From an uncultured Eubacteriales bacterium (lineage in GTDB: Bacteria; Bacillota; Clostridia; Lachnospirales; Lachnospiraceae): a DNA stretch of 64,000 bases. A program made the position numbers and the translations under genes. The notes below the pieces were generated by a model. That model searched no databases. It was not told the DNA's origin and worked only from the letters and a program-made list of their open reading frames with translations. The first letter of the stretch is position 1. The number at the start of each line of letters is the position of its first letter. Below are positions 42,735-63,559 of the stretch, piece after piece. The DNA lies in the NCBI GenBank assembly GCA_900316115.1, contig ONBN01000001.1, forward strand, positions 42,776-106,775. The letters run 5' to 3'.

Positions 42735-42788
42735 GCATTTTCCAGACTAACAAACGGATGATAATAAGAAGATAGGAGGAAGCTAATC

Positions 42789-59906: not shown

Positions 59907-60053
59907 ATGTGATACAAAATTACTTTGTAATGTTCTGTTACATAAAAACACTCCATTTTGTTCTTAAGGGAAAAGTTATATAAATCGTAGAAAATTGATA
60001 TTGCATCCTCCAGAATATAAAAGTAACCTATAAGGTAGGTAATTATGTAATAA

Positions 60054-60136
60054 GGTAACTGTTGATGCTCTTTTAAAATAACATATTTTAGATCTTGTTG
60101 CCTGTCGTCAAATTGCTCTGTATACTGTCATTATCC
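60054..60136 (+). repeat. Left-end repeated sites (possible transposase binding)
   Basis: Three copies related to CCTGTCANTGA in the inward orientation: AACTGTTGATG (60058-60068), CCTGTCGTCAAAT (60101-60113) and ACTGTCATTATCC (60124-60136). They match the right-end set read on the other strand. Confidence 0.5.
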
Positions 60137-60150
60137 TACAGAAAGAAAAA

Positions 60151-60189
60151 ATCTCAGAGCACCTTCCTGGCAGTCGTGTACTCTGAGAT
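60151..60189. repeat. Inverted repeat before DUF6431 gene
   Basis: ATCTCAGAG (60151-60159) and CTCTGAGAT (60181-60189) form a perfect 9-bp stem about 45 bases before the first transposon gene. It could block transcription entering from outside. Confidence 0.6.
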
Positions 60190-60235
60190 CTGGTAAAAAC
60201 CATGTTCATTATAGCAGAGTATACGCTTGTTCGCA

Positions 60236-60745
60236 ATGAGGCAAACGGCGTTTTTTGTTAAGGGCAGTGAAAATATACCAGGATGTCCTTGCTGTGGTGG
60301 ACAACTCAGATACCGGGATTCCAGACTTCGTATCAGAAAACATGAAGGTGGTGACCGGGATTTCCTGAGTATCCGGAGATTCAGATGTACTGCATGTGGG
60401 AGCTATCATAATGAACTTCCAGATGTACTGCTTCCATATAAACACTATGAAGCTGAGGTCATCAGTGGTGTGATCGATGGGTTCGTAACGCCTCATGATC
60501 AGGATTCTGAAGACTATCCTTCGATCAGTACCATGTTGTACTGGCTGCGGTGGTTTCAACTCAATCTTGCAAACATGGAAGGATATCTTAGAAATGCAGG
60601 ATACAGCATTCTCGGACTTGGCAAGGATCTTCTTTTCTCTGACCAGTCACTGCTCGAAGCGGTCAGGAATAAATATTTAAACTGGCTGGAAAAGACCATC
60701 CGCATCATTTACAACAGCGGTGGTTTTCTGCCGGCTTTTTACTAA
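60236..60745 (+). CDS. DUF6431 zinc-ribbon protein of transposon
   Basis: A protein of about 169 aa that resembles DUF6431. The N-terminal zinc ribbon has CPCCGG and CTACGS, two Cys pairs (about residues 17-20 and 51-54). A helical, probably DNA-binding part follows (DVLLPYKHYEAEVISGVIDG). The TTG at 60227 is an alternative start; an in-frame stop lies at 60212, and no clear ribosome site is seen for either. Its place before the transposase and the zinc ribbon recall target-selecting TniQ/TnsD-type proteins, but homology to them is not claimed. It probably is an accessory transposition or regulatory protein. Confidence 0.78.
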   Translation: MRQTAFFVKGSENIPGCPCCGGQLRYRDSRLRIRKHEGGDRDFLSIRRFRCTACGSYHNELPDVLLPYKHYEAEVISGVIDGFVTPHDQDSEDYPSISTMLYWLRWFQLNLANMEGYLRNAGYSILGLGKDLLFSDQSLLEAVRNKYLNWLEKTIRIIYNSGGFLPAFY

Positions 60746-60821
60746 TACACGCATGCACCTACTTTCGTTCGTCTGTCACAGGATTCTCATATATAGTGAT
60801 CTCAAAAGGAGGTCACGAATT

Positions 60822-62237
60822 ATGAATACAAACCAACAGATAGTAAGACAATGGGAGGAACAGGAAGCTCTCCGTCGTTTCCAGCTCATTTCCCCGCTTC
60901 TGCACGGGGATCTGGATGATGCCAAAAAACTCCAGCTTCGCAAAAAGATTGCCGAGGAAAACGAGATCACGGTCCGTTCTCTATACCGCTATGAAAAGGC
61001 ATACAGAGAAGGACAGTTTTCCGGGTTAAAACCGGCAACCAGGAAGAAACAGCGCTCACAGAGACTGCCCGAGAACTTTGAATTCCTTGTAGAACAGGCC
61101 ATCCAACTCAGAAAGGAAGTACCGGAACGTTCCGTCGCTCAGATCATTCTGATTCTTGAAATGGAAGGACATGTGGCTCCTGGAGTTTTAAAGCGTCCTA
61201 CTCTGGAACGGCATCTTTATAAGCGTGGTTTTGGCAGGGAACATATGAAGATGTATCGGGATGCACGTGAAAGTTCATCCAAACGGTTCTGCAAACCACA
61301 CCGTATGATGCTGATCCAGGGGGATATCAAGTATGGTCCCAAACTCCCTATTGGTAAAAATGGGGCAAAAGTCCAGACTTATTTATCTTCAGCAATCGAT
61401 GATCATTCCAGATATATCTTGTCTTCCCGTTTTTATGATAACCAGGAAGAAACAATCGTGGAAGATACCTTCCACCAAGCGGTCATCCGTTACGGAGCAT
61501 TCGATGCCTGTTATTTTGATCATGGCAAACAGTATGTTGCCAGACAGTTAAGCTTTTCTCTTGCAAGACTTGGGATCCGCGTGAAATTCGCGCGAATCCG
61601 GAGCGGGAAAAGTAAGGGAAAGATTGAAAAGTTCCACCAGGTGGTAGATGCCTTCAATCGGGAAGCCAAACTGAAAAATATAAGATCATTGGAAGAACTG
61701 AACCATTTATGGTCTGTCTTCCTTGAGGAGTATTATCACAAAAAGCCACATGAAGGGATTGCTGAATACTATGAAAGCCTGGGTGCTGCGGTACCCGAAA
61801 ACGGGATCACACCTCTCCAGGAATGGAACAGGGATACCCGGCCACTGAACTTTATCGATACTTTTGTCGTTTCAGAAGCTTTCCTGCATCATGAAGAACG
61901 TAAAGTTGACAAAGGAGCCTGCATCAGTTTCCGGGGACAGCGTTATGAAACAAAGCCTGAACTGATTGGGTACAAAGTAGAGATTGCTTACGATCCTGCG
62001 GCTCCGGAAGTGCTGACTGTTACTTATCCCGGCTATGAACCGTTCACAGCCAGACCACTTAAAATCGGAGCTTACTGTGATAAAAATCCTACACTCCCGG
62101 TTTCCATGCAGGAACAGAAGCCAAGTACTTCACGTTTTCTGGATGCTCTTGAAGTACAGCATGAAAAGAACCGTGAGCAGGTAGCAAATGCCATTTCCTT
62201 TGCTTCTTATAGGAAGGAGGCTGATGGTAATGTATGA
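60822..62237 (+). CDS. DDE transposase (TnsB/TniA/Mu-type integrase core)
   Basis: A 471-aa transposase. The N-terminal 130 residues are helix-turn-helix-like (ENEITVRSLYRYEKAYREGQFSGLKPATRK, RSVAQIILILEMEG). The retroviral-integrase core has the catalytic triad: Asp in LIQGDIKYGP, Asp in YFDHGKQYV and Glu in GKSKGKIEKFHQVV. A C-terminal beta-barrel part follows (ISFRGQRYETKPELIGYKVEIAYDP), as in Mu/TniA proteins. The frame extends upstream, but ATG 60822 after AAAAGGAGG is the evident start. It overlaps the ATPase gene by 8 bases. Confidence 0.92.
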   Translation: MNTNQQIVRQWEEQEALRRFQLISPLLHGDLDDAKKLQLRKKIAEENEITVRSLYRYEKAYREGQFSGLKPATRKKQRSQRLPENFEFLVEQAIQLRKEVPERSVAQIILILEMEGHVAPGVLKRPTLERHLYKRGFGREHMKMYRDARESSSKRFCKPHRMMLIQGDIKYGPKLPIGKNGAKVQTYLSSAIDDHSRYILSSRFYDNQEETIVEDTFHQAVIRYGAFDACYFDHGKQYVARQLSFSLARLGIRVKFARIRSGKSKGKIEKFHQVVDAFNREAKLKNIRSLEELNHLWSVFLEEYYHKKPHEGIAEYYESLGAAVPENGITPLQEWNRDTRPLNFIDTFVVSEAFLHHEERKVDKGACISFRGQRYETKPELIGYKVEIAYDPAAPEVLTVTYPGYEPFTARPLKIGAYCDKNPTLPVSMQEQKPSTSRFLDALEVQHEKNREQVANAISFASYRKEADGNV

Positions 62238-63045
62238 GACGTTCTTTGGCATGGAACATACCCCTTTTGTAAGGGATGTCCCCGCAGATAAACTCTATGA
62301 ATCGAATTCTTTTCGCGAAACCCTTGGGCGTCTTGCTTATGTGGCAGACCGCCAGAAGTTTGCAGTTGTCACTGCTGATCCCGGTTGTGGCAAATCTACA
62401 TTGATTCGCCGCTTTTATGAAGAACTTCCAAAGTCGGAATACATTGTCCTTTATCTTTCCGATTCAAAACTGACCCCGAGATGGTTCTATAAAGGACTCC
62501 TGGACCAGTTAGGACTGGAATCCAAGTTTTACAGGGGGGATTCCAAACGCCAGCTGCAACAACAGATTGAGATCATCCGCGGAGTACAACATAAAAAAGT
62601 AGTATGTATTCTTGATGAAGCGCATTTATTGGAAAAAGAAACACTGGAAGAGTTCCGATTTCTTCTGAATTACCGCTTTGACTCTATGAGTCCAATGGCC
62701 GTTGTATTAGTTGGACAGACCGAACTGTGGACGACGAAGCTGAAACTTCAGCGCTATGCTGCAATCCGTCAGCGTATTGATATGTACTGTGTACTTCCTC
62801 ATCTGGATCGAGCTGAATGTGAAAAATACATCCGAAGTCATCTGGATTATTCTGGTTGTCAGCAGGAACTTTTTACAGAAAAAGCCCTTGACGAGATTTA
62901 TCATGCATCCACTGGTATTCCAAGACTGATCAATCGTATTTGTGAGAAAGCATTGATGTATGCATTTCAACAAAACAAACGCCTAATCGATGATTACACG
63001 ATTCGCTATGTTACAGAACATGAAATGCTGGAGGTTAGTGAATAG
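62230..63045 (+). CDS. AAA+ ATPase of transposon (ExeA/TnsC/TniB-like)
   Basis: A 271-aa AAA+ protein. It starts MYETFFGMEHTPF, the form seen in ExeA-like transposition ATPases. It has Walker A ADPGCGKSTL, Walker B VVCILDEAHLL, a sensor region VLVGQTELW and an arginine-containing STGIPRLINRICEKAL. ATG 62230 is 9 bases after GGAGG; ATG 62224 is too close. In Tn7/Mu-like systems this protein chooses targets and activates the transposase, and gives target immunity; that role is inferred here. Confidence 0.9.
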   Translation: MYETFFGMEHTPFVRDVPADKLYESNSFRETLGRLAYVADRQKFAVVTADPGCGKSTLIRRFYEELPKSEYIVLYLSDSKLTPRWFYKGLLDQLGLESKFYRGDSKRQLQQQIEIIRGVQHKKVVCILDEAHLLEKETLEEFRFLLNYRFDSMSPMAVVLVGQTELWTTKLKLQRYAAIRQRIDMYCVLPHLDRAECEKYIRSHLDYSGCQQELFTEKALDEIYHASTGIPRLINRICEKALMYAFQQNKRLIDDYTIRYVTEHEMLEVSE

Positions 63046-63046
63046 T

Positions 63047-63307
63047 ATGACAGATATTCATCCAATCCAGCTTCATGCCCAGCCCTATGAGGTGAAACTC
63101 AATCTGAATGGAAACAGTTATCATTTAATCTTTGGCAGACAGGTAAATGGATGGTTTTTATGTATTCCAAACCACCGGATTGGTGTGGAACTGGCACATC
63201 CTTCAGATCGATTCTGGAATCAGGGAAGTCTGGAAGAAGCCGGAATGGCGACAGAGGAAGCCAGTACGATAGCATATGTTTTAAAAGAACTATCACAGTA
63301 TATCTGA
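63047..63307 (+). CDS. Small protein of transposon
   Basis: An 86-aa protein (MTDIHPIQLHAQPYEVKLNLNGNSYHLIFGRQVNGWFLCIPNHRIGVELAHPSDRFWN...). It starts one base after the ATPase stop, with GGAGG upstream. Its fold appears to be mostly beta at the start and helical at the end; I do not recognise a family. Its constant place after the ATPase suggests an accessory role in transposition. Confidence 0.78.
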   Translation: MTDIHPIQLHAQPYEVKLNLNGNSYHLIFGRQVNGWFLCIPNHRIGVELAHPSDRFWNQGSLEEAGMATEEASTIAYVLKELSQYI

Positions 63308-63314
63308 TAATGCT

Positions 63315-63335
63315 CTGGGGAGGATAACTCCCCAG
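63315..63335 (+). terminator. Hairpin after last transposon gene
   Basis: CTGGGG-AGGATAACT-CCCCAG, a perfect 6-bp GC-rich stem just after the stop. There is no T run. Confidence 0.5.
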
Positions 63336-63369
63336 TCTGTCAACGAAACCAAAGACAGAAAACTGAGCA

Positions 63370-63454
63370 GCCTACTGACAAGCGATAAAATCACGTCAGT
63401 GACAGCTCATGGAATCACTAACAGGTAACTTCTAGTCCTTTCACAGTTACAGGG
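63370..63454 (-). repeat. Right-end repeated sites (possible transposase binding)
   Basis: Read on the minus strand, four related copies: CCTGTAACTGTGAAAGG (63454-63437 region), ACCTGTTAGTGAT (63426-63414 region), AGCTGTCACTGACG (63407-63394 region) and CTTGTCAGTAGG (63382-63371 region). They share CTGT(C/T)A(g)TGA with the left-end sites and point inward from the right tip. Confidence 0.5.
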
Positions 63455-63559
63455 CAAAATGTATTAGGTAATAGGACATTGTTCAGAAGTGGTTCTATTA
63501 CATAATCAAGAATTTGCTGCTCGACTTGAAATATCTTGTGAAGGAGGAGAAACGGTATA

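Follow-up and report, generated by a model that had tools for sequence, protein, structure and literature searches.

The locus analysed here raises the question of which protein, if any, stands in the place of TniQ in a compact transposon that encodes a DDE transposase and an AAA+ ATPase. It lies in a window of 64,000 nucleotides (positions 42,776 to 106,775 of contig ONBN01000001.1, assembly GCA_900316115.1, from an uncultured bacterium of the Lachnospiraceae), and all coordinates below are positions in this window. A preliminary description made from the sequence had placed at 60046‒63502 a four-gene element with a zinc-ribbon protein of the DUF6431 family, a DDE transposase, an AAA+ ATPase and a small last protein, with no recognised TniQ. 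Our Pfam analysis supported this content, and all four genes were present in the order described. In our reading, held with moderate confidence, the element is a self-sufficient transposon from a family that is widespread, has moved recently and relies on three core proteins, among which DUF6431 would act as a dose-controlled transposition partner.

Boundaries and genes of the element

Based on comparison with relatives and on target-site duplications (TSDs), the element was found to span 60060‒63423 (plus strand; 3,364 bp), and the earlier span was corrected accordingly, since it had taken in 14 bp and 79 bp of flanking DNA. Alignment with relatives set the left end at 60060 (5′-TGTTGATG) and the right end at 63423 (CACTAACA-3′). 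Among the aligned relatives, left ends start with TGTT, most with TG or GA near position 7, and right ends close in AACA. Directly outside the two ends stands the same hexamer, GGTAAC, at 60054‒60059 and 63424‒63429. Judged from its sequence, the element is more than a chance arrangement, because two exact TSD copies sit at ends that match those of its relatives. The nearest DNA match was a relative with 83% identity over 2,988 bases (L002), and the element is present as a single copy in its own genome. No empty site was found at the same locus in relatives of the genus, in which conservation ends before the insertion point, and phage records gave no match to the transposase.

The first gene (open reading frame 1, ORF1; 60202‒60745, on the plus strand like the other three) encodes a zinc-ribbon/helix-turn-helix (HTH) protein that matched DUF6431 at 95.3 bits (cut-off 26.6); its leader lies in the frame of 60202 and its body in the +1 frame. 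The frame search listed it as 60227‒60745 with a TTG start, which is probably not the true start. ORF2 (60822‒62237) encodes the transposase of 471 amino acids, assigned from profiles and relatives, which matched rve at 41.4 bits (cut-off 32.6) and Mu-transpos_C at 28.8 bits (cut-off 21.7), with a DDE motif read by eye as D168, D233 and, 35 residues on, E269. The longest ORF2 frame opens at GTG 60720; relatives align to the transposase only from 60822. ORF3 (62230‒63045), the start of which overlaps the ORF2 stop, encodes the AAA+ ATPase of 271 amino acids and matched AAA_22 at 84.6 bits (cut-off 27) and, more weakly, TniB at 27.4 bits (cut-off 22.4). None of the four proteins matched a TniQ, TnsA or resolvase family in Pfam.

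ORF4 (63047‒63307; 86 amino acids), called unassigned in the preliminary description, was placed by Pfam in DUF6618 (45.5 bits, cut-off 27), a named family of unknown function. Its structural model had a predicted local distance difference test (pLDDT) score of 94.9, and Foldseek found no structure matching it at E≤0.001. DUF6618 recurs even in distant cousins, while others have no match to it, and in some relatives different small genes occupy the fourth-gene place; the fourth gene is optional and not core. In five relatives another small gene, helical by eye, stands immediately 3′ of the ATPase gene. Past the last gene, both the window (63310‒63333) and the relatives examined have a GC-rich hairpin, which differs in sequence each time and has no clear T run; the terminator scan did not call the hairpin of the window.

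Mobility of the family and conservation of the gene trio

Scanning of the genome collection with the transposase yielded 39 loci with best-segment identities of 61‒91%, nearly all of which are labelled in their records as Lachnospiraceae or other Clostridia. Six copies of a cousin with about 74% DNA identity to the window element (L003, L005, L007, L008, L009 and L077) were 99.6‒100% identical over the compared stretches, and five of them span five genera, which points to recent transfer. A distant cousin was found as six 3,045-bp copies in one genome, G723 (99.9‒100% identity), five of them with a 6-bp TSD and one, L104, with none. Intact copies measured 3.0‒3.9 kb, and the ATPase (E≤1e-40) was detected in 23 of 397 genomes of the family and 12 of 391 of the class.

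The trio of DUF6431, DDE transposase and AAA+ ATPase is conserved across Bacillota, Actinomycetota and Pseudomonadota. DUF6431 was located upstream of the transposase in 70 of the 76 loci that had both transposase and ATPase, a set that was not dereplicated and in which at least four contigs occur twice. Four of the misses (L030, L097, L098 and L101) hold truncated DUF6431 pieces, and L109 holds a complete-looking DUF6431 frame that the profile overlooked; at L086 no DUF6431 was seen, and the transposase match was also partial. Ten upstream proteins chosen from distant loci all matched DUF6431 at E≤5e-5, eight of them over the cut-off, and four were already annotated as such. In the plasmid survey, nine loci were opened as high-scoring relatives of the transposase or ATPase: DUF6431 was annotated upstream in eight (from Alicyclobacillus, Planococcus, Ruminococcus, Acidithiobacillus, Geobacillus, Metabacillus, Streptomyces and Cupriavidus), and an unannotated frame matched it in the ninth, from Thermobacillus. 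Because of this recurrence upstream of the transposase, in the 76 loci and in plasmid records alike, DUF6431 is a core gene and not a passenger. The window element has the trio order and the tandem end sites of the DUF6431-DDE-AAA family.

In one copy (L076, from G319), the DUF6431 gene is interrupted by about 1.35 kb of other DNA.

DUF6431 and the choice of target

The preliminary description had suggested that DUF6431 could play the part of target selector that TniQ has in known systems. In the structural model, DUF6431 opens with N-terminal strands, continues with a zinc ribbon built on four invariant cysteines and with an HTH region, and closes with a helical C-terminal tail, which in close copies ends in W-L/M-x3-I/L-R-x-I/L-Y-N-S/A-G. 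This layout is different from that of the TniQ core, given in the available part of PMC10293859 as about 300 amino acids arranged in a helical domain, a zinc finger, a connector helix and a second helical domain.

Insertion sites of homologues were collected, and TSDs of 6‒7 bp were identified at 20 loci: 13 of 6 bp and six of 7 bp among 19 scored sites, and one of 6 bp (CAATAG) at L077, outside the scored set. L016 (by eye) and the L104 copy had no TSD. Five of these TSDs (L079, L087, L088, L089 and L100) came from a computed matching-end search and may include a chance match, lower-scoring candidates being uncounted. When the 19 sites were aligned at the right edge, only two TSD positions exceeded the chance 95% limit of 0.68 bits, position 3 with 0.79 bits (A or T in 18) and position 5 with 0.81 bits (A in 13); when they were aligned at the left edge, no column passed this limit (highest 0.64 bits). 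Six of 16 joined sites lay within an open frame of at least 200 codons, indicating that genes and gaps are both hit.

Several of our results weigh against a TniQ-like part for DUF6431. The 19 sites gave no insertion-site rule beyond the weak local preference, and a target-selecting role is therefore not required. Comparison of DUF6431 with TniQ by hhalign, a test of low power against a single R751 sequence, gave a probability of 0.1%, and Foldseek against the PDB gave no match at E≤0.001 and no TniQ among the best 50 of 258 hits. DUF6431 genes also occur alone, the fetched sequence around them having no such transposase, and the domain is therefore not specific to transposition. A phmmer search of PDB sequences returned nothing useful, and a PF06527 search of the element's own genome gave no match, the control giving no match anywhere either. 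The insertion pattern, which is like the near-random targeting of the MuB or IstB type, argues against an attachment-site selector. What stands of the proposed selector is a conserved core gene, whereas a site-specific ‘TniQ substitute’ is unproven, because the insertion preference is weak and no likeness of DUF6431 to TniQ was found. The preliminary description had itself set random insertion and a dispensable DUF6431 against its proposal; insertion proved close to random, while DUF6431 was rarely absent.

Alternatively, DUF6431 may bind the ends or act as a repressor, being an ISL3-like zinc ribbon-HTH domain with a gene separate from that of the transposase; target choice would then fall to the transposase and ATPase by themselves, as it does in Mu and IS21. 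We regard this as a serious possibility that falls somewhat short of an even chance: among the ten distant DUF6431 proteins, three had additional matches, below cut-offs, to ISL3 zinc-ribbon or HTH models, ORF1 is first in the operon and beside the left-end sites, and insertion is nearly random, but a mere repressor need not persist in so large a share of the trio loci, and the transposon copies carry the C-terminal tail that is absent from the four solo DUF6431 genes aligned.

At four loci (L055, L056, L059 and L061), a solo gene for a DUF6431 protein of about 103‒120 amino acids adjoins a tyrosine recombinase-like gene (by eye), and the domain may serve another kind of mobile element too. 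At four further loci (L064, L066, L067 and L068), DUF6431 proteins with an MII-type start were found, and the sequence fetched there gave no match to the transposase of the window element.

Place among known transposon groups

The label ‘Tn7/Mu-like’ given in the preliminary description was borne out in part. The TnsB-type DDE transposase with Mu_C and the TniB-type AAA+ ATPase agree with it, whereas the TSDs of 6‒7 bp and the nearest NCBIfam transposase profile, IS481 (153.6 bits, under the curated cut-off of 224), do not. The element shares with Tn7-, Tn5053- and Tn402-like elements a TnsB/TniA-type DDE transposase, a TnsC/TniB-type AAA+ ATPase, end-site arrays, TGT/ACA ends and a small zinc-binding third protein, but differs from them in that its four proteins include no TniQ, TnsA or resolvase. 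The TSDs of the DUF6431 family also differ in length from those of Tn7-like elements, which are of 5 bp in the available part of PMC11406308. Pairwise BLAST to TniA and TniB of R751 gave short, weak matches, with best E values of 0.016 and 0.053, respectively. IS21 and phage Mu have a transposase and an AAA+ activator without TniQ, and near-random targets. DUF6431 is not known to have a counterpart in either, and no IstB family was present among the 24 Pfam matches listed for ORF3.

It is unlikely that the element simply belongs to an established group, the IS481 family or the Tn552-like elements, and has picked up passenger genes. IS481 elements have a single transposase gene, whereas the window element has four genes, including those for the ATPase and DUF6431, and leaves the curated IS481 cut-off unreached. 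IS481 is nonetheless the closest profile, and TGT/ACA ends and 6-bp TSDs, both found here, are usual in that family in the available parts of PMC11406308 and PMC10045372. The transposase tree had 28 rows, 22 of them of the DUF6431 type. These 22 stood apart from three Tn552-like rows and TniA (support 100/99), three of the four Tn552-like loci thus lying outside, but ISEc19 and ISAzs36, long branches joined at 92/89 and unsure in place, fell among the DUF6431-type, a single origin of which was recovered in 20% of bootstrap trees. ISAzs36 (L169) is annotated as IS481-like and has a recombinase gene on one side and an AAA ATPase gene on the other, so that the IS481 label already covers one pairing of DDE and AAA genes.

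Two plasmid loci from Mammaliicoccus (L172) and Enterococcus (L170), which we take to be Tn552 relatives, resemble the window element in that an AAA ATPase of about 270 amino acids comes after a DDE transposase of about 480, with no TniQ listed in the stretch shown, and arrays of subterminal repeats are present in Tn552. They differ in having a recombinase-family gene before the transposase where the window element has DUF6431, in transposases that fall on another branch and in ATPases that are 22‒24% identical to that of the window over 116‒142 residues; the serine resolvase of Tn552-like elements has no matching family among the four proteins of the window element. The Tn552 arrays are those of PMC8649781, in the part available. 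From these comparisons we class the element as a DDE transposon under AAA+ regulation in which the third protein is a different one. In the partial literature available (including PMC11406308, PMC8649781, PMC10293859, PMC10045372 and PMC12323340), no published description of the DUF6431-DDE-AAA trio was recognised, and DUF6431 appeared in one paper, within a table of genes.

Frame change within ORF1

The frame of the ORF1 body relative to its leader was analysed at 37 loci, 30 found by the start-codon motif and seven by the leader model. The body was in the +1 frame at 27 loci, with an (A/G)TTTTTN run between, in the +2 frame at one, with a 7-T run, and in frame at eight; L032, in which ORF1 shifts elsewhere and the transposase match is split too, was counted apart from these classes. 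The motif loci comprised 24 of ‘+1’ (L032 among them), one of ‘+2’ and five in frame, to which the leader model added four of +1 (L046, L051, L054 and L062, the last with a stop inside the DUF6431 body as well) and three in frame (L010, L034 and L047). Dereplication before the last five loci gave 20 of +1, one of +2 and six in frame (n=27). L052, in frame by eye and lacking a leader match, was uncounted, and L057 and L085 were outside the count. In the window, the putative recoding site is GTT TTT T at 60250‒60256 (plus strand).

The leader evolves as coding sequence in frame 0: the nine codons that begin with ATG 60202 are kept at the protein level in 22 loci (M-hydrophobic-I-hydrophobic-S/A/T-D/E/K-Y), and departures at the three codon positions numbered 49, 11 and 53. 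A like N-terminal strand is joined to the zinc ribbon in the in-frame copies and in the solo DUF6431 proteins of L066 and L067, and the model of the joined window protein had a mean pLDDT of 90.9, its leader strands folding with the body at 83‒90. Full-length DUF6431 seems to need recoding in the frame-changed loci, and, because the leader is conserved as protein, in-frame joins exist and the joined protein folds, programmed recoding of ORF1 is more likely than decay or an internal start. The frame change may be a ribosomal +1 slip, a −2 slip or polymerase slippage. Three points tell against recoding: a run of five or six Ts is short for polymerase slippage, TTT-A or TTT-G offers poor +1 re-pairing for tRNA-Phe, and the eight in-frame loci indicate that recoding is not essential to every lineage.

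It is quite improbable that recoding is absent, the body starting inside the +1 frame and the conserved leader being a separate small peptide, as TTG, ATG or GTG codons in that frame of the window and several relatives and a Shine-Dalgarno-like AAGGAGG or AATGAGG directly upstream of the shift site in many copies (by eye) would allow, since L016 has none of these codons ahead of the cysteines in the +1 frame and many copies have ATA at that place (both by eye), and since the in-frame loci and the two solo proteins join a similar strand to the body and the joined window protein folds well.

Leader hairpins and end sites

Upstream of the frame change, two hairpins were recognized in the 5′ leader (plus strand). 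The nine pairs of the first (stem 60151‒60159 with 60181‒60189) were formed in 93.6% of cells among 26 distinct leaders, and seven of them were changed on both sides, in 25 cells; none of 500 shuffles reached the observed pairing, two-sided changes or covariation score, and in slid controls the paired cells dropped to 20‒54%. The second hairpin (TGGT/ACCA; 60191‒60202) includes the A of the ORF1 start codon. A stem of at least 4 bp reaching the AUG was found in 23 of the 26 leaders, against a mean of 8.5 and a highest value of 15 in 200 shuffled controls, a test of the 5′ arm only, as the leaders were chosen by a motif that fixes the 3′ arm. Two results count against a structured leader: the first hairpin has eight pair types, below all shuffles (mean 10.2), in one of five covariation measures, and six leaders folded alone had z-scores from −1.08, the weak value of the window, to −4.07, with three below −2. 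Rfam gave nothing at gathering level, and the sole match with E up to 5 falls outside the element.

The leader covariance model detected 27 places in 20 of 299 genomes of the family. Ten of these had no match to the four proteins, and L165 had a transposase piece. Four loci (L146, L150, L151 and L165) look like broken copies, in which the left end, the leader and all or part of the shift region are followed within 1.5 kb by other DNA; five (L141, L155, L157, L164 and L167) reach a contig end, and L159 and L160 are weak terminator-like matches. We also weighed the idea that the leader is an RNA guide and dropped it, the leader outside intact copies being accounted for by these broken copies, contig ends and two weak hits.

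Both ends of the element carry a tandem array of putative sites of about 24 bp, the outermost left site being weaker. At right ends, TGTC stands at offsets 20, 44 and 67, each in 17 of 20 relatives (window cores 63401‒63405, 63377‒63381 and 63354‒63358); at left ends it stands at offsets 44 and 67, each in 15 of 17 (window cores 60103‒60106 and 60126‒60129), and at offset 20 in two of 17, all being raw counts without a shuffle control. Similar arrays of end sites are known from Tn7-like elements in the available part of PMC8649781.

A promoter-like pair, TTGCCT (60098‒60103) and TATACT (60121‒60126) with a 17-bp spacer on the plus strand, touches the left-end sites with both hexamers, so that the transposase, once bound, may silence the operon that encodes it. 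TTG and TATAnT were kept in 17 of 17 left ends by eye. The case for the pair rests on this conservation, because a plain consensus scan of the region, a further point against the proposed control, gave four promoter-like pairs against 7.2 expected, not above chance. On the minus strand, a second promoter-like pair (TTGCGA-17-TATAAT, 10/12; 60208‒60236) lies over the ORF1 start; it could give rise to antisense transcription through the leader, although the total of promoter-like pairs in the scan, as stated, is not above chance.

Proposed mode of transposition

The ends, the TSDs, the gene trio, the covariation and coding character of the leader and the conserved frame change are seen in the sequence; from them we infer the promoter, its self-repression, the recoding and all biochemical roles in the following course. 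The DDE transposase would bind the tandem sites at both ends, pair the ends, cut at TG/CA and join the ends to the target with a stagger of 6‒7 bp. The TniB/ExeA-like AAA+ ATPase would assemble on target DNA and activate the transposase, as do MuB, IstB and TnsC. DUF6431 would be the third transposition protein, most likely bridging the ATPase or transposase to DNA, and thus TniQ-like in action without being a TniQ. Its dose would be held low by self-repression at the promoter-like pair that overlaps the transposase sites, by a start codon placed inside a hairpin behind the conserved leader hairpin, and by a +1 (or −2) slip at (A/G)TTTTTN that the full-length protein would need.

Sequences flanking the element

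Immediately left of the element, the segment 59897‒59955 contains a palindromic stretch (59902‒59948). Short pieces that match it occur in relatives of the genus and, within the genome itself, on two other contigs, which makes it a small dispersed repeat. Further left, a single frame of 484 amino acids (58307‒59761) combines a Sua5-like part and a dCMP-deaminase-like part (names by eye). The corresponding DNA stretches lie several hundred bases apart in relatives of the genus, suggesting that a deletion fused two genes, or that the assembly did.

Significance

AAA+-regulated transposons are the chassis of CRISPR-associated transposases, in which the steering of the ATPase is a central question. 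A compact family that occurs in three phyla and has a conserved third protein of its own where others have TniQ would offer an independent test of what such a third protein must do. A bolder reading, which we put forward tentatively and consider doubtful, is that these elements form a TniQ-independent AAA+-regulated class, in which DUF6431, of separate origin, is the adaptor that licenses the ATPase and transposase, and in which the Lachnospiraceae-centred branch is frameshift-controlled behind a structured leader. If this were true, recoding, and not transcription alone, would set the frequency of transposition. If the frame change is indeed recoding, translational control in this family would act not on the transposase but on an accessory protein of transposition.

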